Source: a virus. Taken from it: a stretch of 29,443 bases of DNA. Position numbers and translations under genes: made by a program. Positions within the stretch are counted from its first letter, which is position 1, and each line of letters begins with the position of its first letter. Shown here piece after piece: positions 18,323-26,476 of the stretch. The notes beneath the pieces are model-generated. The model was not told where the DNA came from. It did not search any database and was given only the letters and a program-made list of their open reading frames with translations. The stretch covers positions 1 to 29,443 of the IMG/VR virus record IMGVR_UViG_3300047359_000305; one strand, 5' to 3'.

Positions 18323-19022
18323 CGAACTTCTCGTAATATGTGTAGACTCTATTGTACCATTCGTTACGCCACTCATCATACTCATGTGGCCATACATCAA
18401 ACTGTTGATATGTTTCTCCTCCGAGCTCCATACCGTCATCTCCGCGGCTACACATAAAGATATGTCCTTCACGTATGTTAGTGCCGTAGATTTCGTTGTG
18501 TGCTTCTGCGTATGCTACTAGCTGTAAGAAGTAGTTTTGTACATACTCTAGCTTCTTAGGCTTATTAGTCTGTTTAAAGTCCATAATACACGGATTGCCT
18601 TTGTACTTGCCAACTAAGTCAGTAGTACCAGCATACATCTGTGGAACATATAGTGCAACTTCACTGCCCCATATTTCGTCTACATCAACCATTGCATTGT
18701 CACGTACTTGTGTAGCCATTGCGTGAGCTTTCTTAGCAAATGGATTGCTACCTGGAGTAGGCCATTCGCCAAACTCAATGTAGTCTTCTAAGTACTTGTG
18801 CATACGTGTTCCAACGCCTGCCGCTTCGGTTGTAATTTCTCTTGCTTTAGTTTCGCCAACACGTTTACGCCACGCAATAAGTCCTGACTTATCACTAGTA
18901 GCATCAAGTATAGTAGTAACACTAGCAACAGCGCCTCCGTCAGGCGTCATGTACTTTCTTTTACCGTCTACTTGTTTTCTGTTTATTGGCTGGTAATCAA
19001 ACGTCTTTGTAATTAAGGACAT
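18318..19022 (-). CDS. PD-(D/E)XK exonuclease (RecB/MGME1-like)
   Basis: A 234-aa single-domain nuclease. The catalytic layout is visible: VASVTTILDATSDK near the start, GTRMHKYLED with H75, EVALYVPQMYAGTTDLVG with E121 and D135, IMDFKQTNKPKK with D148-x-K150, and the QLVAYAEAHN helix with its Q-x-x-x-Y pattern. These residues bind metal ions and attack DNA; relatives act as single-strand exonucleases in recombination or DNA end processing. The start lies 26 bp inside the end of the NfuA-like gene, so translation is probably linked. It is transcribed from the strong sigma70 promoter at 19334-19362. Confidence 0.9.
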   Translation of the reverse strand: MSLITKTFDYQPINRKQVDGKRKYMTPDGGAVASVTTILDATSDKSGLIAWRKRVGETKAREITTEAAGVGTRMHKYLEDYIEFGEWPTPGSNPFAKKAHAMATQVRDNAMVDVDEIWGSEVALYVPQMYAGTTDLVGKYKGNPCIMDFKQTNKPKKLEYVQNYFLQLVAYAEAHNEIYGTNIREGHIFMCSRGDDGMELGGETYQQFDVWPHEYDEWRNEWYNRVYTYYEKFA

Positions 19023-19311
19023 TTACGGTTCCCTTGTCATAGTATGGATCGACTTCGCTATCTTCGTCATCAACTGCATCGACCAATTCTACTTCAGGAA
19101 CGTTTGCTTTGATAATTCTTTCAACACCCATTTTGAGTGTCATCTTACTACCTGCGCAACCTGCACATGCTCCACTGAGCTCTAGTAGTAATTCACCGTC
19201 GTCATAACTCTTAAAATTAATGATTCCACCGTGCCTTGCAACAGCAGGTTTAATCTGAGAAGCAATAATTGATTCTATTTGTTCTACGATTTCTTCGTTT
19301 GTTCGAGACAT
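18997..19311 (-). CDS. NfuA/NifU C-terminal-domain-like Fe-S protein
   Basis: A 104-aa protein. Residues 6-80 are a NifU C-terminal-type domain: IIASQIKPAVARHGGIINF, then ELLLELSGACAGCAGSKMTL with the iron-sulfur-binding C49-A-G-C52, then MGVERIIKANVPEVELVDAVD. In bacteria this domain carries 4Fe-4S clusters to target proteins. The remaining acidic tail (DDEDSEVDPYYDKGTVNVL) is not part of the family core. The gene follows a perfect-consensus promoter and overlaps the PD-(D/E)XK nuclease gene; some RecB-type nucleases of this fold carry an Fe-S cluster, though cluster cysteines are not evident in this one. Confidence 0.9.
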   Translation of the reverse strand: MSRTNEEIVEQIESIIASQIKPAVARHGGIINFKSYDDGELLLELSGACAGCAGSKMTLKMGVERIIKANVPEVELVDAVDDEDSEVDPYYDKGTVNVLNYKDV

Positions 19312-19366: not shown

Positions 19367-19693
19367 TTATTGACCTTTAGACATGGCTCGTTTTGCCATT
19401 TGGGCTACTTTCTTGTTTCCCGTGTCTTGTTGCGGTGCAGAAGTATCTGCATCTGTATCAGTTTTGAGTGTTATACCGTCTTGGTTAAAGTTCTTAACCA
19501 TAGACTTTACACGCTCATCACTGTCATAAGCCGCTTTGAACGTTCTGTAGTCGAACTGTTCGCGGTTACTATTGCGCATTAGTTTGTTAAGTGCATCAAA
19601 AGAAAACTCGCTTGCTTGCTTTTTCAAGTTTGCATCAGCGAGTCTGTTTCTAAGAATTAAAACTAATTTGGAAGCATCACTTGCTTCGTTTAC
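19367..19693 (-). CDS. Frame-shifted extension of the 281-aa protein, or separate small gene
   Basis: The frame from 19693 to the stop at 19367 is open for 108 codons and has no ATG or GTG in its first 38. The first usable start inside it is a TTG at 19627 without a Shine-Dalgarno sequence, giving 86 aa. Upstream of that TTG the frame continues without a stop (VNEASDASKLVLILRNRLAD...) back into the last codons of the 281-aa gene. The product is helical and charged: FSFDALNKLMRNSNREQFDY, RTFKAAYDSDERVKSMV, then a polar low-complexity stretch TDTDADTSAPQQD and a basic end. It is most simply read as the C-terminal 108 residues of a -1 frameshift product of 389 aa. Function unknown, probably structural. 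Confidence 0.65.
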   Translation of the reverse strand, partial: VNEASDASKLVLILRNRLADANLKKQASEFSFDALNKLMRNSNREQFDYRTFKAAYDSDERVKSMVKNFNQDGITLKTDTDADTSAPQQDTGNKKVAQMAKRAMSKGQ

Positions 19694-19699
19694 TTTTTT
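19671..19699 (-). promoter_or_regulatory. Candidate programmed -1 frameshift site
   Basis: The minus strand carries the heptamer A AAA AAG (19699-19693) in frame at the end of a nine-A run, with TAA as the very next codon. After 5 nt comes a hairpin with arms GAAGC (19687-19683) and GCTTC (19675-19671) and a 7-nt loop. A AAA AAG is the E. coli dnaX slippery sequence. A slip of -1 leads into the frame open to 19367. Confidence 0.6.
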
Positions 19700-20535
19700 T
19701 TTGAAAGAATAGTACCTAATTTTCTGCTTCTCTCTACGCTTTCACGTTTTGCACGACCTGCTTCTTCTTCGCCACCTACTGCGGCATCAGCGGCGCCCAT
19801 GCCATCGTCATCTGCAGGTAGTTCAGCGTCAATAGCGCCAGCTTCTGCATCTACGGTTGGTTCCATTTCTGCTTCGCCTTCAGGTGCTACTTCGTCGCCC
19901 ATTGGTTGCTCAGGCATTTCTTCGCCTGTCATTAGTCCAACACCTTGAGTTGTTGCTTCACGTGTTGCTTCTAATGCTGTATATAATGCTTCAAGAGCTG
20001 GTTTCACAATATTAACAAAAGCCTCTGACTGCTCTGAACCCATTTCATCACGAATTGAGTCTGCAAGTTCTAACATTGACTCTGTTTGCATTTCTGCTGT
20101 GTCTTCCATCCAACCTGTAATGCGGTTCACCATATCTTTTGCCGCCATTACTAATTCAGCTTGCTCTTCAGCACCTTCACTTACTTTTTTCTTCTTCTTG
20201 TCCTTAATAGCCTTTTTCATAGGTTCTTTTTTGTCGCCGTCTTTGTCCATGTCAAGGAAGTCTGGCTTAGCACCTTCACCTATGTTCTCACGCTCTGCAA
20301 TTTCAGCATTCAATACATCAAGGAAGAGCTTTGATTTTTGATATGCTTCGCGCTGTACTGAGTTAAAACTTTCAGTAGTTTCAACGTTAAATAAATCTGT
20401 ACGTAATTTGTTCTGAGCATTTTGTAACTGCTCTAATGTAAATGTTTCTAATGCAATACGCTTGCCGAATCTTTTGGCAAGACTCTCGTTAAGCGCCTTT
20501 GCTGTTACTGGTTTTGATATCTCTCTGATGTTCAT
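19690..20535 (-). CDS. Putative prohead core/internal structural protein, 281 aa
   Basis: N-terminus MNIREISKPVTAKALNES, with L15-N16-E17|S18 as a possible head-protease site. A helical region follows, then DFLDMDKDGDKKEPMKKA with a run of lysines (KDKKKKK, about 115-121), further helices, and a very acidic C-terminal part (about 200-262, rich in E, D, A, P, G). The end is basic and lysine-rich. Alternating charged helices and an acidic stretch suit a scaffolding/core protein, and similar proteins occur in the structural regions of marine T4-like phages. A ribosome-binding site (CAGGAAGAG) and a late-type box at 20569-20576 precede it. It ends on the slippery sequence described separately. 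Exact role unknown. Confidence 0.7.
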   Translation of the reverse strand: MNIREISKPVTAKALNESLAKRFGKRIALETFTLEQLQNAQNKLRTDLFNVETTESFNSVQREAYQKSKLFLDVLNAEIAERENIGEGAKPDFLDMDKDGDKKEPMKKAIKDKKKKKVSEGAEEQAELVMAAKDMVNRITGWMEDTAEMQTESMLELADSIRDEMGSEQSEAFVNIVKPALEALYTALEATREATTQGVGLMTGEEMPEQPMGDEVAPEGEAEMEPTVDAEAGAIDAELPADDDGMGAADAAVGGEEEAGRAKRESVERSRKLGTILSKKK

Positions 20536-20568
20536 TTTAATTCTCTTCCTGTGAACTGTTGTTATAGT

Positions 20569-20576
20569 TATTTATC
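20569..20576 (-). promoter_or_regulatory. Candidate late promoter box (GATAAATA)
   Basis: GATAAATA on the minus strand, one mismatch from TATAAATA, 34 bp before the ATG at 20535 and a few bases after the stop of the 143-aa gene. It is the same octamer as at 11409-11416. Confidence 0.6.
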
Positions 20577-20580
20577 ATCG

Positions 20581-21012
20581 TTAATAGATATACTGGTCCA
20601 ATCTTTCTTTTGCAGATTGTGTTCTACAGTATGCAATATCGTATCTGCACTGTGCTACATCGTATTTAATCGAGTCTTTTGTTACTTTCATCATGTGTCT
20701 ATGAAACATTGCGTCATTAAAGTTCTTCATAACTTCATAATCTAGTTTCATAATCTCATTTGTATTGCTTTCTGGATCTGTAGCAAGTGTCTTTGCTAGT
20801 GCTACTGCACTTGTTTTACAGAACATTTTATCAATTTCTTTATTGTTTTTAGTATCAAATACTAAAAAGCCAAAATTTGTTTCACGTATAATAATATGTT
20901 TAATACGTATACTCTTGCCTTTGACATAGGGAAACAGGCTCATATCAATATTGCTATTAACCAAAGTTTCTAATTCTTTTACTAATTCAGGACTAAGTGT
21001 TTTAGAGTTCAT
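20581..21012 (-). CDS. Hypothetical protein of the head/structural block, 143 aa
   Basis: The protein has beta strands in the first half (GKSIRIKHIIIRETNFGFLV, FDTKNNKEI) and helices after it (MFCKTSAVALAKTL, then a C-terminal helix with regularly spaced Y, R and C in QCRYDIAYCRTQSAKERL). The pattern resembles conserved but uncharacterised proteins of T4-like cyanophages. The start lies 11 bp inside the end of the 67-aa gene. Function unknown. Confidence 0.7.
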   Translation of the reverse strand: MNSKTLSPELVKELETLVNSNIDMSLFPYVKGKSIRIKHIIIRETNFGFLVFDTKNNKEIDKMFCKTSAVALAKTLATDPESNTNEIMKLDYEVMKNFNDAMFHRHMMKVTKDSIKYDVAQCRYDIAYCRTQSAKERLDQYIY

Positions 21013-21205
21013 TTACCATCACCAGAGTAGATCCATTGCGCTGTACTTTACTTACTAGACTTTTACGTATTAAGTTCTCAATTATGGCTTGTTCTCGTTC
21101 ACTAAATGTTTCGATTGCTTTAATGCCTTCAAGCCGTTCTAATACTTCTGATTCTTCGTTAGTCTGAAAAATCACAAAGTCCTGTAATAGCTCGTTGAGT
21201 TTCAT
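21002..21205 (-). CDS. Small protein with winged-helix-like pattern, 67 aa
   Basis: N-terminus MKLNELLQDF has the same M-[K/R]-x-x-E-hydrophobic lead seen in the neighbouring genes. The middle, FSEREQAIIENLIRKSLVSK, followed by NGSTLVMVNEL, gives a helix-helix-strand order that would fit a small winged helix. No L-x-E cleavage site at the usual place. Its ATG follows the stop of the 145-aa gene directly. Function unknown. Confidence 0.65.
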   Translation of the reverse strand: MKLNELLQDFVIFQTNEESEVLERLEGIKAIETFSEREQAIIENLIRKSLVSKVQRNGSTLVMVNEL

Positions 21206-21643
21206 TTATTGTCCTTGCACCATGTTTTGTATAATTGGGTCAAGTTCTTTTGTCTTGTGTACAGTTTTAACTGGTTCGCCTGGTTTTGGCTTTGGATTGG
21301 TTAGTGTAACTTCATCGCCCTTGATGTCGTCCACTTCGAAGTCTGCAACTTTCTTGCCACCGTCTGTAGGCATAGTAATACTTTGCCCTCGCTTCAATAC
21401 GGCCTTCTGTAATGCTTTTGCATTTTTAGCGGCTACTTTTTTAGCAAGTCCTTTGCCCACACCTTGTGCGCCTTTGACTGCCGCCGCTCCTACTTTCTGT
21501 GCTGCCTGTGCGCCTGCTTTGGCGCCGGCTTTCGCAATACCTGTAGCCGCTTTTGCCGCTACACCTGCTACTGCTCCGATTGCAGGGATGATTTCATCTA
21601 ACTGTTCTTCATTTACTTTTTTGTTAAACTCGTTAAATCTCAT
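21206..21643 (-). CDS. Ala/Lys/Gly-rich histone-H1-like putative internal head protein
   Basis: The 145-aa protein begins MRFNEFNKKVNEEQLDEI, a capsid-targeting-like lead with L15-D16-E17 as a possible cleavage site. Residues 18-85 are Ala/Gly/Lys-rich (IPAIGAVAGVAAKAATGIAK and following), like the tail of histone H1 or the basic part of DNA-compacting proteins; a membrane-active helix is the alternative for residues 18-40. The last third is a small polar domain (VADFEVDDIKGDEVTL, PKPKPGEPVKTV). It overlaps its upstream neighbour by 4 bp. A DNA-binding role inside the head is inferred, not shown. Confidence 0.7.
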   Translation of the reverse strand: MRFNEFNKKVNEEQLDEIIPAIGAVAGVAAKAATGIAKAGAKAGAQAAQKVGAAAVKGAQGVGKGLAKKVAAKNAKALQKAVLKRGQSITMPTDGGKKVADFEVDDIKGDEVTLTNPKPKPGEPVKTVHKTKELDPIIQNMVQGQ

Positions 21644-21978
21644 CTTCTTCTCGCTGTTCTTTTTCTAGGTTTCAATTTAGATCTAGAATGTACATTCAAT
21701 ACACCTAAACGCTTACTAGTCTTTCTAGCTCTCTTGGTTCTGTTAGATTTGATGCTCATTACTGCACCTTTTCTACGCTTCGCCTTTTTAATGTTAATAC
21801 TACTACCAACATTCTTAGGAGCAGTGCAAGTGCTAGGTTTGCTTACAATGCGTCCTCTACGTGTTCCGCTAGTACATCTATACTTACGAACAATTTTGTT
21901 TCCGCTACGTCCAGCAATTTGAACATAACCTTCTTCTAGGAACTCTAAGTCGATATCTTCGAGATCATCGTACTTCAT
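21640..21978 (-). CDS. Arg/Lys-rich putative internal head protein, second tandem paralogue
   Basis: 112 aa. An acidic lead of 16 residues (MKYDDLEDIDLEFLEE|G) ends in L-E-E followed by glycine, a good match to a T4 gp21-type site, which would release a very basic mature protein. A conserved module follows: KIVRKYRCTSGTRRGRIVSK and CTAP, with two cysteines about 17 residues apart. It is shared with the preceding gene (KVVRKYRCSGGKRHGRIVSK...C). The remainder is a string of R/K/S typical of DNA-neutralising proteins. The start overlaps the upstream stop by one base, so the pair is co-translated. Confidence 0.75.
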   Translation of the reverse strand: MKYDDLEDIDLEFLEEGYVQIAGRSGNKIVRKYRCTSGTRRGRIVSKPSTCTAPKNVGSSINIKKAKRRKGAVMSIKSNRTKRARKTSKRLGVLNVHSRSKLKPRKRTARRR

Positions 21979-22259
21979 TAACGTCCCCTTTTATTCAGTG
22001 CCGCTACTCTACGTGACGCTGGATTGACTCTCTTTGTTCTACGTGCCTTACGTGTCATCTTGCTACCAATACGTGCTTTCAATCGTTTCATAGCGAAACG
22101 CTTCTTCATGTCTGGTGCCGCAAAACATTGTTGTATCTTAGATACAATACGTCCATGGCGCTTGCCTCCGGAACAGCGATACTTACGTACAACTTTCTTT
22201 CCGCTCTTAGCCCATACACGCTTCTCGTCAAGGCTCGATGTCAACTCTCTTAATAACAT
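21978..22259 (-). CDS. Arg/Lys-rich putative internal head protein, first tandem paralogue
   Basis: 93 aa, starting MLLRELTSSLDEK, with L10-D11-E12 as a possible head-protease site. The module KKVVRKYRCSGGKRHGRIVS with a second cysteine (QQCFAAP) is shared with the next gene. The C-terminal half (KRFAMKRLKARIGSKMTRKA, RRTKRVNPASRR) is strongly basic and should bind DNA. There is no clear Shine-Dalgarno sequence; an ACTAAATA box at 22264-22271 lies directly in front, so the message might be nearly leaderless or the gene may depend on read-through. Confidence 0.75.
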   Translation of the reverse strand: MLLRELTSSLDEKRVWAKSGKKVVRKYRCSGGKRHGRIVSKIQQCFAAPDMKKRFAMKRLKARIGSKMTRKARRTKRVNPASRRVAALNKRGR

Positions 22260-22263
22260 ATTG

Positions 22264-22271
22264 TATTTAGT
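22264..22271 (-). promoter_or_regulatory. Possible late-type box (ACTAAATA) directly before a start codon
   Basis: ACTAAATACAATA on the minus strand, the same 13-mer as at the 26476 gene, but only 4 bp before the ATG at 22259. A promoter here would give an almost leaderless message, so it may be non-functional. Confidence 0.25.
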
Positions 22272-22285
22272 TTTTTTGTAAAGTG

Positions 22286-22531
22286 TTATTGTGGAAACGA
22301 CATTAGCAGTACAACAATAGTTGATAATAATCCTGCTACAATAGTTCCTGCGGCTCCAATAATAACCTTAGTCATTGATGCATTGCCGTCTTTAATGTCT
22401 TTGTGTACTTCTTGAATCTTTTCTTCGACCTTGTACAAACGGTCGTCTAAACTTTTATATCGAAGAGCGCATAGGTCAACGTGAGCTTCTAAGCTCTCTT
22501 TTTCTAATTCTGTTGTAGGTAGTTCAGACAC
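22286..22531 (-). CDS. Small membrane-anchored coiled-coil protein (possible XhlA/holin-like)
   Basis: 81 aa. Residues 5-50 form an amphipathic coiled coil (ESLEAHVDLCALRYKSLDDR, LYKVEEKIQEVHKDIKDGN) and residues 54-78 one hydrophobic helix (KVIIGAAGTIVAGLLSTIVV). The order coiled coil then C-terminal transmembrane helix is that of haemolysin XhlA-type and some holin or spanin-associated proteins. A lysis role is possible but not proven. The ribosome-binding site is GGAGAAC. Confidence 0.65.
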   Translation of the reverse strand: MSELPTTELEKESLEAHVDLCALRYKSLDDRLYKVEEKIQEVHKDIKDGNASMTKVIIGAAGTIVAGLLSTIVVLLMSFPQ

Positions 22532-22581
22532 ATTGTTCTCCGTTATTGTGTATTAAGTAAACTCTGTCGTTAGCCTTAATT

Positions 22582-22992
22582 TTAGTCAACTAGTGAAAAA
22601 GATATATTCTTGTCTTTTCCCTTAGTTCTAAACAATGCCTTGTCTGTTGTTATAGTTTCGTCTAAGCCTATAATGATCGGTATAAGATCAAAATCTTTTG
22701 TAAGCATTGCTAAGTCTATTGCTCCTTCAAATTCTACTTCAAAGTCGAACGACCAAACGTTTTGCTTACCTATGTATTTATCACCAAATGAACTTTTCAC
22801 TACGCTTAATTTGCCAAAACTTGGACTTTTGTCATAGTTTAAATTAACACGTAACCCTATTGTTTGTAATACGGTTTGGAAATTAGCCTCTTGCTTGTAA
22901 GCATACTTGTCATCATCCTGCCTGCGACTGCTGGTGTTTGTGATGTCTATTAATGTGTCGATACGAAACTTCATACTATTACTTATAGCCAT
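22582..22992 (-). CDS. Hypothetical protein, likely virion structural, 136 aa
   Basis: Mostly beta-strand pattern with aromatic residues (NFQTVLQTIGLRVNLNYD, KLSVVKSSFGDKYIGKQNVW, SFDFEVEFEGAIDLAML), which suits a tail or head decoration domain. No family recognised. Its ATG abuts the T tract of the terminator of the upstream gene and lacks a Shine-Dalgarno sequence, so expression must be low, by read-through, or from an internal start (an ATG at 22974 also lacks one). Confidence 0.65.
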   Translation of the reverse strand: MAISNSMKFRIDTLIDITNTSSRRQDDDKYAYKQEANFQTVLQTIGLRVNLNYDKSPSFGKLSVVKSSFGDKYIGKQNVWSFDFEVEFEGAIDLAMLTKDFDLIPIIIGLDETITTDKALFRTKGKDKNISFSLVD

Positions 22993-23027
22993 AAAAAAAG
23001 GGTCCAGTAAAAACTGAACCCTTTTAG
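22993..23027 (-). terminator. Intrinsic terminator of the 115-aa structural gene
   Basis: Minus-strand stem of 10 bp (arms 23013-23022 and 22999-23008, one G-T pair, extendable by A-T pairs) with a TTTT loop, followed by a run of T residues that touches the ATG of the next gene. It ends the transcript from 23423. Confidence 0.88.
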
Positions 23028-23075
23028 TGTGACGTCTGCCTTACGGCTGTAAATCACGTTCCTAAGGTAAAGGAA

Positions 23076-23423
23076 TTATGTTGCGCTAAACGCATCCAAG
23101 TCACGAATAAGAACAACTTGAGCTGATAAATCAATACCGTCTACTGTTCCTAATGCTTGATGTCTACGAGTCAAAGATGCCGCATCACTGTGATGTCCAT
23201 CGATGATTGCAAAGATTTTACCTGCTGTACCTGTTGATACATACATAAGTGGTGAAAACTCACGTACAATCGCTTCGATTGCTCCGCCGATTCCGTCTTT
23301 TGCCGCTAATGAAGCGCCAGCGTCGATTTCGATCGCTGTAATTTGTGATGTGCTGTACTGCTCACCATGGTCGTAGCCTGATCCTGCGCCTGCTACTGGG
23401 TTTGTTCTTGTAAATTCAGCCAT
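23076..23423 (-). CDS. Putative abundant structural/decoration protein, 115 aa
   Basis: A polar, alternating strand-helix protein with AEFTRTNPVAGAGSGYDHGE near the N-terminus, ITAIEIDAGASLAAKDGIGG, YVSTGTAGKIFAIIDGHHSD and VVLIRDLDAFSAT at the end. The gene is a unit of its own: a late-type box (23490-23497), a strong TAGGAG ribosome-binding site, the gene, and a strong terminator. This layout suggests high late expression, as expected for a major structural protein. The family was not recognised; a small capsid decoration or tail protein is likely. Confidence 0.7.
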   Translation of the reverse strand: MAEFTRTNPVAGAGSGYDHGEQYSTSQITAIEIDAGASLAAKDGIGGAIEAIVREFSPLMYVSTGTAGKIFAIIDGHHSDAASLTRRHQALGTVDGIDLSAQVVLIRDLDAFSAT

Positions 23424-23489
23424 TTTATTTCTCCTATAATTTATCTAATGACAACATTAAACGACGACTCTGTCGCTTTTTGTTATATG

Positions 23490-23497
23490 TATTTAGC
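23490..23497 (-). promoter_or_regulatory. Candidate late promoter box (GCTAAATA)
   Basis: GCTAAATA on the minus strand, 67 bp before the ATG at 23423. Two mismatches from TATAAATA. It is followed by a short hairpin (GCGAC-AGA-GTCGT) in the leader. The unit it heads has its own terminator. Confidence 0.5.
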
Positions 23498-23525
23498 CTT
23501 TTGAATAAAAATAGGTGAATATATG

Positions 23526-23843
23526 CTATTTTTTAAGTCTCTTGTGCAAGTTGCGTAGTTGTGTAATACCTGCGGGGCCTGCATCTACTATATCGTCTAT
23601 CATGTCTATGATAGGTAGATATGCTTGTACAAAGGTACTAGGTACACCTTTTCCGTCTTGTGCTAGTTCAGTAAAGCGTCTTGCTTTAACAGCATTTTCT
23701 ACGCCTACCAAGTAACCGTAAAGAGCAACTTGCCTGTCTTTGGACAAACGCTTAACACGCTCGCCTCTAATATTAGCCCATGCACCTTCGTCTAGGTGTT
23801 TCTCAACTAGTCCTTCTTCGTACATGTTCTTAATAAAATCCAT
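23526..23843 (-). CDS. Hypothetical protein of the head block, 105 aa
   Basis: N-terminus MDFIKNMYEEGLVEKHLDEG, with L17-D18-E19|G20 as a possible head-protease site. The remainder is helical (SKDRQVALYGYLVGVENAVK, FVQAYLPIIDMIDDIV, ITQLRNLHKRLKK). It directly follows the 112-aa gene (adjacent stop and start). Function unknown; the leader suggests an internal head protein. Confidence 0.65.
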   Translation of the reverse strand: MDFIKNMYEEGLVEKHLDEGAWANIRGERVKRLSKDRQVALYGYLVGVENAVKARRFTELAQDGKGVPSTFVQAYLPIIDMIDDIVDAGPAGITQLRNLHKRLKK

Positions 23844-24182
23844 TTACTTAACTAAGCCCTTTGCTTTACAGAACTTCATCATTTTTTCTAAGCCTGCTGA
23901 ATTTTGAATGTCCTTCATAATCTTCATCTTAGTGTCTGGTGGCATCTGCATTTTAAGTATTTTCATAAGTGCAACTGCCATTGGGCGTTCAACACGTATT
24001 TGTTTGCCGTCATCAGTTTTTACTGTGCGGATTGGATTTTTAATGTCTGGATGATCTTCACTGTCTTCAATTTTCATTAATTGAACTTGCATTGCTTCTT
24101 GTTCGAAATCAGTTTCACTGTCTCCGCCCACGCTCATGTCAAAGTCTAAATCATCGCCTTCGTACATTTCATTGATTTTCAT
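23844..24182 (-). CDS. Hypothetical acidic protein of the head block, 112 aa
   Basis: N-terminus MKINEMYEGDDLDF has the shared lead motif; the first 50 residues are very acidic, followed by a basic helical part (ERPMAVALMKILKMQMPPDT, MKIMKDIQNSAGLEKMMKFC). A GGGGAA ribosome-binding site precedes the ATG. The acidic-basic layout suits a scaffold or head-internal protein. No family recognised. Confidence 0.65.
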   Translation of the reverse strand: MKINEMYEGDDLDFDMSVGGDSETDFEQEAMQVQLMKIEDSEDHPDIKNPIRTVKTDDGKQIRVERPMAVALMKILKMQMPPDTKMKIMKDIQNSAGLEKMMKFCKAKGLVK

Positions 24183-24197
24183 AGTATTCCCCTATTG

Positions 24198-25355
24198 TTA
24201 TCTTTCAACTGCTCTGTTGTATTTACTAAAAGTTTTACGTGGCACAAGTTTTATGTCGCCTCCTGGATGTGCTAATACATATCCTTCGCCGCCATCAACT
24301 GAATCGTCTTTGTTTGACATACTCTGTTTTACAGGTGCCCCTGGTTGGTTGTCAAGTTGAAAAATTACATCGTCCTTGACTTGTTGTATCTTTGCAACTA
24401 CTTCCCATAGTGCATTGAAACCTTGTTGGTTGTTTGTTATATACTCGGCAATACGCTTTTGTTTAACACCACTTATCTTATTGTTGTTGTTAACCCAATC
24501 CATAAAGTCACCGCCTAGGTTATCTAAGCCTGTGTCTACTTTGCTGTTCATATAAGCATAAAAGATCTTTGGTAAGTCTTTCATTTTTAATTCTGTTAGT
24601 GTGTTGATGTTTATTAAACTATCCATTGCCGCGGCATCTTTAGCAATAACTGCTTTAAGTTCTTTAACACTAGTATCGTCTATTTGTGGTGCTGACTGTG
24701 CTTGTACTGGTGGTACAACTAACACATCATTGCCTTCAAATATATCTGCATTAGACAAAGGACCTTCACTGCCTACACTATCAACTTCTCTGTGTATAAC
24801 AATGCCTGTTTTACTTGCGCCAATTTGCTCTCCTAAGGAAGAGTCTGTTGTTACTTTATATGTAACAATGTTAGGAGTAAACACATAATGTCCATCTTGT
24901 ACTTTTGGTGTATCAAAGTATAGCATGTCTCCTTTAAAGAATCCTTTGTAGTCTTTAGGAGTTGCTTTTTCAAATGCTGTATATGCATTTTTCATCTTGC
25001 CAATCATTACGCCATAACCTTCTGGGTTCTTTGCAAAGCCCGGACGGTTCTTAAACATTGTTTCTAAGTCGTCTGCTGACTTTGCTTTGCCATCGTATCC
25101 TTTGGCACTAAATCCTGACTTGTCTGTGAATATAAAGTTACCATCAGTGTCGCGCCCAAATATGACTGCGGGACTTCCATCCCACTTAATGGTGACATCT
25201 TGGACACCGCTTTTTTCCATATTGATAAAACTTTGTAAAGCTCTGTTAGCACCTTTACTTCCTTCCCAAAAAACTATATCCTCAGCATGTTGTATGCGAG
25301 CTTCTGCTTCTAATAAAGGCTTTCTGTTTTTATTTGCAAATTCTCTAAGCCTCAT
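24198..25355 (-). CDS. Ligase-like nucleotidyltransferase with capsid-targeting-like leader
   Basis: 385 aa. N-terminus MRLREFANKNRKPLLEAEAR, with L14-L15-E16|A17 matching a T4 gp21-type cleavage site. The core carries the covalent nucleotidyltransferase motifs of DNA/RNA ligases: motif I K57-W-D-G60 in TIKWDGSPAVIFGRD, motif IV EGYVL (357-361) and motif V IKLV (K369). Lysine 57 would form the AMP adduct. The middle part (about 215-345) is an insertion of mainly helices. No separate OB-fold is evident, so it may be a minimal or diverged ligase. It overlaps the pol-beta-type gene by 11 bp. Substrate unknown; DNA or RNA end joining is the family expectation. Confidence 0.8.
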   Translation of the reverse strand: MRLREFANKNRKPLLEAEARIQHAEDIVFWEGSKGANRALQSFINMEKSGVQDVTIKWDGSPAVIFGRDTDGNFIFTDKSGFSAKGYDGKAKSADDLETMFKNRPGFAKNPEGYGVMIGKMKNAYTAFEKATPKDYKGFFKGDMLYFDTPKVQDGHYVFTPNIVTYKVTTDSSLGEQIGASKTGIVIHREVDSVGSEGPLSNADIFEGNDVLVVPPVQAQSAPQIDDTSVKELKAVIAKDAAAMDSLININTLTELKMKDLPKIFYAYMNSKVDTGLDNLGGDFMDWVNNNNKISGVKQKRIAEYITNNQQGFNALWEVVAKIQQVKDDVIFQLDNQPGAPVKQSMSNKDDSVDGGEGYVLAHPGGDIKLVPRKTFSKYNRAVER

Positions 25356-26226
25356 AACGATTGTATCCCGATAGTTGTAGTATTCTATTCATTTGTTTGT
25401 CTGCTAAACCTTCTTTAGTTAGAAGTTCATCTGGAACACCAATATCTTTTACTGTTCCGTTTTTAGCAAAACTATCTTTAATCTTTTGTACTTTGTCAGC
25501 AGGGTAGTTTGCTTCAACTGCTGATAGCAACGATTCAAAACTGTTTAAGTCTTTACCACTAGTTAAGTTTAATGCTTTAGCAATACCGTTTTTATCTTTG
25601 ATTGGCTCTTGTACTTTAGTATCAACATTCTTTTTAGTAAAGCCCTTGCCGTCTTTACGTTGTGCAGGTACACGCTTGACTCTTACAAGTCCATCTGACG
25701 GGCTCCATATCCAACGTTCTATTTCTACTGGACGGCCATCGTCAATTGTTTCTTCTGATGCTCTGCTATCATGGAAAGCGGCAATAGTAGCAATCATTAA
25801 ATTACGGAATACACCTTTATACTTTGACTCTTTGTCACTTGGTGAGTGATAGTATGTTTTCATCCATTCAGGGTCACCTGGCATAAAGTCTATTTGTACA
25901 TAACCTGTACGTGGTTTTGTTGTTTGCTTACTTTCATCGTAGCCTTCAATCTTAACTTTTGTCATTATGACTGAACTTTTAGCAATGTCTAATACTAACG
26001 GACATGCTTCTATCTTTTTAACTAGCTCTGGTATCTTATCTGCATCAACTTGTATAGCAACATCAATGTCACCACTAAACTCTTTTTTACCGACTGAACC
26101 AAGTACATTGTTTTGTAGATCTATTCCTAGATGCTTTTCCATTGTTGCAAGTGTAGGTTTGATTTCATCTATATGAATAGGTCCTACACCAGGCATTGAT
26201 CCGCCTTCAAAGAGTTTATTTGTCAT
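25345..26226 (-). CDS. Pol-beta-type nucleotidyltransferase
   Basis: 293 aa from the ATG at 26226; the frame runs on to a TTG at 26241, which is less likely. The active site shows GSVGKKEFSGDIDV (43-56: GS...D53-x-D55) and the third aspartate in YVQIDFMPGD (D113), which together bind two metal ions. The family adds nucleotides to tRNA, antibiotics or proteins, or acts as antitoxin. The C-terminal half is helical and may recognise substrate; it ends YNRYEA. L5-F6-E7|G8 could be a head-protease site. The gene sits between an 86-aa gene and the ligase-like gene, with short overlaps on both sides, so the three are co-translated. Confidence 0.82.
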   Translation of the reverse strand: MTNKLFEGGSMPGVGPIHIDEIKPTLATMEKHLGIDLQNNVLGSVGKKEFSGDIDVAIQVDADKIPELVKKIEACPLVLDIAKSSVIMTKVKIEGYDESKQTTKPRTGYVQIDFMPGDPEWMKTYYHSPSDKESKYKGVFRNLMIATIAAFHDSRASEETIDDGRPVEIERWIWSPSDGLVRVKRVPAQRKDGKGFTKKNVDTKVQEPIKDKNGIAKALNLTSGKDLNSFESLLSAVEANYPADKVQKIKDSFAKNGTVKDIGVPDELLTKEGLADKQMNRILQLSGYNRYEA

Positions 26227-26476
26227 TCTTTTTGCTCTCAATAATTTTGTTTATTCCACGTTTGAACTTGCGTGGATCACCTGATCGTATACTATTTAAA
26301 AAACGTCTTTCTAATTCACCTGCGGTGTTTTCATCATATGTATTGCTAATTCTATTTAATAAGTTAATAGAACTTTCAATAATGTTATTTGCAGTTGTTT
26401 CAATTAAACGATCATTATCTTGGCTACGGCCCAAGTTGTTTAATTCGTCTAATATGCTTCTTGTACGTTTTTTCAT
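26216..26476 (-). CDS. Small helical hypothetical protein, 86 aa
   Basis: Charged helices throughout (MKKRTRSILDELNNLGRSQD, LIETTANNIIESSINLLNRI, LERRFLNSIRSGDPRKFKRG). Proteins of this pattern are common in T4-like cyanophages and pelagiphages but have no assigned role. It is first in a minus-strand unit behind an ACTAAATA box, and its stop overlaps the start of the nucleotidyltransferase by 11 bp. Confidence 0.7.
   Translation of the reverse strand: MKKRTRSILDELNNLGRSQDNDRLIETTANNIIESSINLLNRISNTYDENTAGELERRFLNSIRSGDPRKFKRGINKIIESKKNDK

Follow-up and report, generated by a model that had tools for sequence, protein, structure and literature searches.

The two genes described here lie in IMG/VR virus record IMGVR_UViG_3300047359_000305, of which the whole stretch of 29,443 bases was analysed (the window). 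They encode a nucleotidyltransferase of the DNA polymerase beta (pol-beta) superfamily (NT; 25345–26226, 293 amino acids counted from the ATG) and a ligase-like covalent nucleotidyltransferase of family DUF6267 (24198–25355, 385 amino acids). Both genes are on the minus strand, as are all window features given below. The genes overlap by 11 bp (25345–25355, letters ATGAGGCTTAG). An earlier model-made annotation of this DNA (the original prediction) had described the pair as co-translated enzymes probably packaged in the phage head, and its coordinates, strand, frames and 11-bp overlap were all correct on recheck.

The catalytic motif of the NT, GSVGKKEFSGDID, spans G43–D55 (26062–26100), and the third carboxylate is found in QID (Q111–D113; 25888–25896). 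Together these give G43-S44...G52-D53-I-D55 and Q111-x-D113, that is, the superfamily pattern hG[GS]...[DE]h[DE]h plus a third carboxylate. G52, D53, D55, Q111, and D113 are invariant in the alignment of 93 NT homologues, in agreement with the earlier claim of intact catalytic motifs (GS...DID plus a third D), which concerned D53, D55, and D113. An AlphaFold2 model, computed with the homologue alignment as input (mean predicted local distance difference test score [pLDDT], 93.9), was compared with the Protein Data Bank (PDB) by Foldseek. DNA polymerase beta was matched with probability 1.00 (best E 2.8e-5), and 56 PDB matches were obtained at E < 0.001, the best 50 of which were all DNA polymerase beta; the PDB holds many such entries, and the global TM-score of the match is low (about 0.4). 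A nucleotidyltransferase fold of the pol-beta superfamily was thus recovered by structure prediction, and the nearest fold is that of DNA polymerase beta, not of the MNT- or CCA-type enzymes proposed earlier for comparison. No Pfam match was obtained for the window NT itself; some of the 93 members weakly match the Pfam models DNA_pol_B_thumb and palm. Sequence searches of the PDB with single proteins or profiles gave no significant match. Two candidate identities were rejected: RlaP (PF10127), which is not among the families listed for the 93 members at E <= 1 (hhalign probability, 0.2%) and which T4, Atu_ph07, and other genomes carry as a gene of its own; and CCA-adding enzyme (PF01743, PolyA_pol head), which the family listing for NT members also lacks (hhalign to a phage CCA enzyme, 3.5%).

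The partner protein, claimed at first to be a "ligase-like" enzyme, falls in PF19782 (DUF6267), a Pfam family without an assigned function, which it matches over residues 21–383 of 385 (E 2.6e-35; 122.9 bits, cut-off 27) and which is matched by all 96 aligned homologues. Its motifs follow each other in the order of motifs I (KxDG), III, IV (EG), and V (K) that defines the superfamily of ligases and capping enzymes: K57-W-D59-G60 (KWDG, 25176–25187; K57 is the predicted nucleotidylated lysine), G142-D143 (acidic residue D143 of KGDMLYF, 24927–24929), E357-G358-Y-V360 (EGYV, 24276–24287), and K369-L-V371 (KLV, 24243–24251). K57, D59, G60, D143, E357, G358, K369, and V371 are invariant across the 96 aligned proteins, and the series KWDG...EGYVL...IKLV read earlier from this protein is accordingly both ordered and conserved. 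The AlphaFold2 model, made in the same way, has a mean pLDDT of 93.1; among its best Foldseek matches, all insignificant, are the adenylyltransferase domain of a tRNA ligase, a capping enzyme, DNA ligase 1, and AsfvLIG. The fold comparison is probably hampered by a mostly helical insertion seen in the model between motifs IIIa and IV (residues 227–335; 24351–24677). A cyanophage member of only 298 amino acids spans PF19782 end to end, which suggests that this insertion is dispensable. The protein ends just past motif V, with no C-terminal OB-fold domain after it; such a domain is typical of DNA ligases.

Kinship with RNA_ligase-like proteins was found by way of the jumbo phages. In Atu_ph07 and Phosso the gene ahead of the NT homologue, which it overlaps slightly, weakly matches RNA_ligase (E 0.002 and 0.085, respectively), and in PA5oct a homologue of that gene lies three genes upstream of the NT; against PF09414 (RNA_ligase) these neighbours of the NT stay below threshold (E 2e-4 to 0.085). 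When the DUF6267 profile was aligned with the RNA_ligase-like family of PA5oct, Atu_ph07, and Phosso by hhalign, a full-length match was obtained (91.8%, E 7.5e-7, 293 columns; unrelated profiles as negative controls, 0.4–0.6%). By this computation DUF6267 comes out as a distant homologue of the jumbo-phage RNA_ligase-like proteins, and the jumbo-phage and marine pairs are probably the same pair, with the gene order swapped and the sequences deeply diverged. Among the matches listed for DUF6267 members, RNA_ligase (PF09414) does not appear, with no match above its cut-off, and RNA_lig_T4_1 is matched by one member (E 0.011). A direct match to T4 Rnl1, Rnl2, and gp30, the comparison proposed originally, was rejected, single-sequence comparison giving no signal with any of the three. 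Locus L095 (6010–8355) has an overlapping trio in which the gene for a third ligase-like protein (KVDGS...EGFV...FKV; Rnl1 and RNA_ligase matched weakly) sits between those of an NT and an HxGH nucleotidyltransferase.

The NT and DUF6267 genes co-occur widely: 101 of 199 loci have NT followed by DUF6267, and 39 have both in one open reading frame (ORF). With redundancy removed at 90%, NT lies directly upstream of 52 of 103 DUF6267 proteins and is fused to 29; the commonest gene overlap in this set is 4 bp (31 cases), followed by 1 bp (7 cases). At least 6–7 changes between the fused and the separate state were counted on a quick FastTree phylogeny, and one fusion (L140) has the reverse order. 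Fused ORFs (L016, 7917–9935; L098; L104; L143; L161–L178; L183; and others) mostly carry a conserved [LI]xE|[AGS] at the junction (vertical bar, predicted cut) and resemble a cleavable capsid polyprotein. On contigs G001, G005, and G015 the two genes are not adjacent, yet both are present at distant sites; DUF6267 was not detected in two NT-bearing contigs of about 100 kb (G003, G004). Further exceptions are some DUF6267 genes (in cyanophages, L033, and L193) whose only nucleotidyltransferase partner is an HxGH enzyme. DUF6267 fused to an HxGH (CTP_transf_like) domain was observed in L193 (5296–7227) and L181 (5962–8181). Six loci (L160, L142, L147, L153, L157, L158) have DUF6267 without an adjacent NT and with a long leader resembling that of the NT (MKI.DI.G..KR...), as might result from loss of the NT or a swap of leaders. 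In or beside polyproteins of 533–1,099 amino acids (L057, L062, L068, L094), an NT forms the C-terminal domain or the neighbouring gene; these polyproteins carry a domain "EFTRHFLDRVND.R" and starts like a capsid-targeting sequence (CTS-like), and look like polyvalent injected proteins.

Both window proteins begin with a short leader ending in a site that resembles the cleavage sites of the T4 prohead protease. The capsid-targeting-like leader of the DUF6267 protein, MRLREFANKNRKPLLE|A (25308–25355), has the form MRLREF...LLE|A with a predicted cut LLE16|A17, and residues 1–17 are the sole low-confidence part of the model (pLDDT <50), being disordered there. T4 internal proteins (IP) I, II, and III begin MKTFKEF...ITE|A or MKTYQEFIAE|A, and the window leader matches their layout, including the [LI]xE|[AGS] ending of T4-type internal proteins. 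In T4, the IPs and Alt reach the prohead by way of leaders of about 10–20 residues, which gp21 cuts off (PMC7411985). The LLE|A leader of the ligase-like protein is present as first read; that of the NT, MTNKLFE|GG (MTNKLFE, 26206–26226; site LFE|G), is an addition to it. DUF6267 leaders vary from <10 to about 60 residues and usually end in such a site: [LI]xE|[AGS] occurs in 55 of 79 distinct leaders, 4–8 residues ahead of the conserved domain (shuffled mean 2.3, max 7), and at fusion junctions the site is kept in 28 of 32 distinct cases (shuffled mean 1.1, max 5); these shuffles ignore shared ancestry, a limit that tells against the packaging argument, and their numbers express non-randomness, not independent events. 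Among 125 distinct NT N-termini hxE|[GS][GKN] is kept in 113, and six are leaderless, starting at MGG/MSGN. The stronger argument is the repeated fusion together with the turnover of leaders.

The surroundings of the pair point in the same direction. From about 16.6 to 26.5 kb the window is colinear with EST35_0225–0241 of PA5oct, seven window genes giving significant matches (those at 19690, 20581, 22582, 23076, DUF6267, NT, and 26216). Most proteins of this PA5oct block have virion mass-spectrometry notes. The counterparts of four of the window genes (NT, 19690, 22582, 23076) are marked in PA5oct as detected by electrospray ionization tandem mass spectrometry (ESI-MS/MS), the NT orthologue, EST35_0231, being annotated as virion-detected by this method. 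Upstream of the NT, in the same operon, lies a gene for an 86-amino acid protein (26216–26476; phrog_11854, "virion structural protein", PHROG E 1.1e-16) homologous to PA5oct EST35_0225 and given the same label in NC_071039 and further records; downstream of the pair follows a block of predicted virion or internal proteins (19690–24182), colinear with EST35_0233, 0234, 0236, and 0237. CTS-like starts in this block (MNIREI, MKLNEL, MRFNEF, MKYDDL, MLLREL, MKINEM) are found in 6 of 12 proteins; outside the block the counts are 0 of 29 for the rest of the window and 2 of 152 for control regions of contig G001. Compared with the terminase of the PA5oct group, that of a pair-bearing contig shows 55.6% identity, so that the window is taken to come from marine relatives of that group. 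A close relative of T4 was rejected, the terminase being nearest to the PA5oct group and Gp23 not being found in fragments of the window's own group. Peptidase_S77 is present in each of the seven complete named phages that were tested, T4 among them, and among marine records in 4 of 25; Peptidase_S78 as maturation protease was dismissed, being absent in 22 records. Judged by PA5oct gene distances, head genes would be expected just past the end of the 204-kb contig G001. Head packaging of the pair, called probable from the start, is thus supported well, though indirectly, by sequence signatures and the colinear virion-protein block; of the two PA5oct orthologues, that of the NT bears the virion mass-spectrometry mark. 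None of the outcomes named earlier as refuting the original prediction was observed.

We give about an even chance to the reading that the pair is an end-repair kit, matured by the prohead protease and injected, most likely for RNA (tRNA) and possibly for DNA gaps. The computations establish that the two genes pair and fuse, that the NT has its fold, that the ligase motifs and the cut sites are conserved, and that DUF6267 is remotely homologous to RNA_ligase-like proteins. The functional link is an inference, as it was in the original prediction, and so are cutting of the leaders, loading into the heads of this phage, injection, activity, and substrate; the course would be as follows. One message would give the NT and DUF6267 precursors, each with its short N-terminal leader, and the leader would pull each protein (or, in relatives, the fused polyprotein) into the prohead core; a gp21-type prohead protease would cut after LLE16 of DUF6267, after LFE7 of the NT, and at the junction of fusions; the mature enzymes would then enter the cell together with the DNA. 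There the NT may extend a broken 3' end by a single nucleotide or a few, by means of D53, D55, and D113, and the DUF6267 enzyme may charge K57 with adenosine monophosphate and seal a 5'-phosphate to a 3'-hydroxyl. The most likely target would be RNA cut by host defence, for example in tRNA anticodon loops, the main alternative being gapped or nicked incoming phage DNA. For RlaP and RNA ligase it has been proposed that together they replace nucleotides lost from cut tRNA before sealing it (PMC7824862), and an NT beside a ligase matches that repair logic. RNA-end repair leads, with DNA repair second. A role on RNA is favoured by the RNA_ligase matches and by a CCA-adding enzyme that lies near an NT-bearing polyprotein in G001. 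This enzyme (L242, 14751–16598) is fused to an NT5C-like HAD phosphatase and starts with MKIFEV, like head-targeted proteins, beside the polyprotein; of 32 records, the 5 with a CCA-adding enzyme all exceed 200 kb.

Several results weigh against this reading. The DUF6267 model has no significant PDB fold match (Foldseek, none below E 0.001), and the family by itself reaches no known ligase family in Pfam. The DUF6267 protein of cyanophage P-HM1 and the NT of PA5oct are without a leader; the ligase-like protein of PA5oct, EST35_0228, has no mass-spectrometry note, and the PA5oct list includes ribonucleotide reductase, such that some entries may be co-purified. Neither Peptidase_S77 nor Gp23 was detected in the window or in most marine contigs, which as fragments (the window has 29 kb) are uninformative on this point, though they lend no support either. 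Finally, the pol-beta-like fold of the NT favours a role on DNA.

In the DNA version, the head-packaged NT would fill short gaps as a family-X polymerase-like enzyme and DUF6267 would seal nicks on the incoming phage genome, with a logic like that of the PolX–ligase pair of African swine fever virus (ASFV). The structural matches of the NT, the weak Pfam hits of some NT members to thumb and palm, and the presence of DNA ligase 1 and AsfvLIG among the faint Foldseek matches of DUF6267 all lean this way. We nevertheless consider it unlikely, since the ligase-like relatives match RNA_ligase and RNA_lig_T4_1, not DNA ligase models, since an OB-fold domain is missing beyond motif V, and since the pol-beta match itself has a low TM-score in a database rich in pol-beta entries. 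An improbable second alternative is that the enzymes transfer nucleotides to host proteins or to small molecules (e.g., NAD-type cofactors) early in infection. In cyanophages and elsewhere among phages, DUF6267 is also paired with or fused to HxGH (CTP_transf_like, NMNAT-like) enzymes; the HxGH partner is a virion protein in several cyanophages, with NAD synthesis proposed (PMC3037559, PMC9602691, PMC10665884); and pol-beta domains of polyvalent injected proteins are predicted to modify proteins (PMC5512222). The full-length profile match to RNA_ligase-like proteins and the pol-beta-like NT fold speak against it, and the presence of all three enzyme types together in single loci (L127, L095) fits nucleic-acid ends better. 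That the pair acts unpackaged in the cell during replication, the leaders serving otherwise (e.g., in scaffold assembly) or being inherited remnants, is likewise improbable: the leaderless NT and unmarked ligase-like partner of PA5oct and the primase and helicase genes adjoining the locus in relatives would suit it, but the cut sites outlast leader turnover and are kept at internal fusion junctions as well, PA5oct neighbours in the colinear block have been marked as belonging to the virion, and CTS-like starts are rare elsewhere in the genome.

Further genes were observed in the window or in related contigs: a host-like phosphoribosyl pyrophosphate synthetase gene (window, 1667–2626), also near the block in L028 and in G001 (L240, 10032–10979); a gene for a NifU-like Fe-S scaffold protein (window, 18997–19311), also in L009 and G001; and, in L239 and L242 of G001, numerous related genes arranged in arrays, with radical-SAM/SPASM-like cysteine motifs and with starts of the form "CxLPF/CSIPW".

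DUF6267-like proteins were detected in 471 phage records, mostly cyanomyoviruses; for this family neither a function nor a mention was found in the literature searched. That phages may have RNA repair pairs and inject head proteins is not a new concept; new here are the assignment of DUF6267, at superfamily level, to the ligases, the constancy with which it is paired, and often fused, with a separate pol-beta family, and the recurrence of protease sites in leaders and at fusion junctions. In this way an anonymous, abundant ocean gene becomes a testable enzyme. Taken at its widest, the injected end-repair reading would describe a widespread kit preloaded in the virion, made of a new pol-beta-like polymerase family and a new ligase family (DUF6267), targeted by leaders, in some lineages delivered as a protease-cut polyprotein, and injected to undo damage by host defence before phage gene expression; this we regard as possible, at somewhat less than an even chance. 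If it is true, repair tools carried in the particle could counter tRNA-cutting or DNA-cutting defences at once, ahead of gene expression, and a cleavable polyprotein would be an unusual route for loading two enzymes together.

Among known systems, the RlaP–RNA ligase pairs of phages, jumbo phages included (PF10127 with Rnl1 or Rnl2), likewise have a pol-beta-superfamily nucleotidyltransferase working beside a ligase (PMC7824862). They differ from the present pair in that the NT here is not RlaP and DUF6267 does not match T4 Rnl1 or Rnl2; the passage on RlaP mentions neither head-leader signatures nor a cleavable polyprotein. ASFV PolX and AsfvLIG offer another viral pol-beta-family polymerase and DNA ligase joined in repair, although of DNA and in an unrelated virus, kinship being unsupported beyond weak fold matches. 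In cyanophages DUF6267 (T4-GC 71) is directly followed by a virion-found nucleotidyltransferase, the HxGH "cytidylyltransferase" T4-GC 190 (PMC3037559); this partner is of the HxGH type and NMNAT-like, not a pol-beta NT, and the P-HM1 DUF6267 is leaderless.

A further likeness is the colinear block EST35_0225–0241 of the PA5oct/Paride group (Arenbergviridae, Wroclawvirus), with EST35_0231 as orthologue of the NT and EST35_0228 as that of the ligase-like protein; there the ligase-like gene comes first, two genes separate it from that of the leaderless NT, and the annotation names no enzyme function. With T4 IPI, IPII, IPIII, and Alt the pair shares the short N-terminal leader (in the IPs, M[KR]...EF... 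ending in [LI]xE|A/G after about 10–20 residues). The cargo predicted to be packaged here would be a repair pair and not a restriction inhibitor or an ADP-ribosyltransferase, and like that predicted cargo T4 Alt is an enzyme among the internal proteins.
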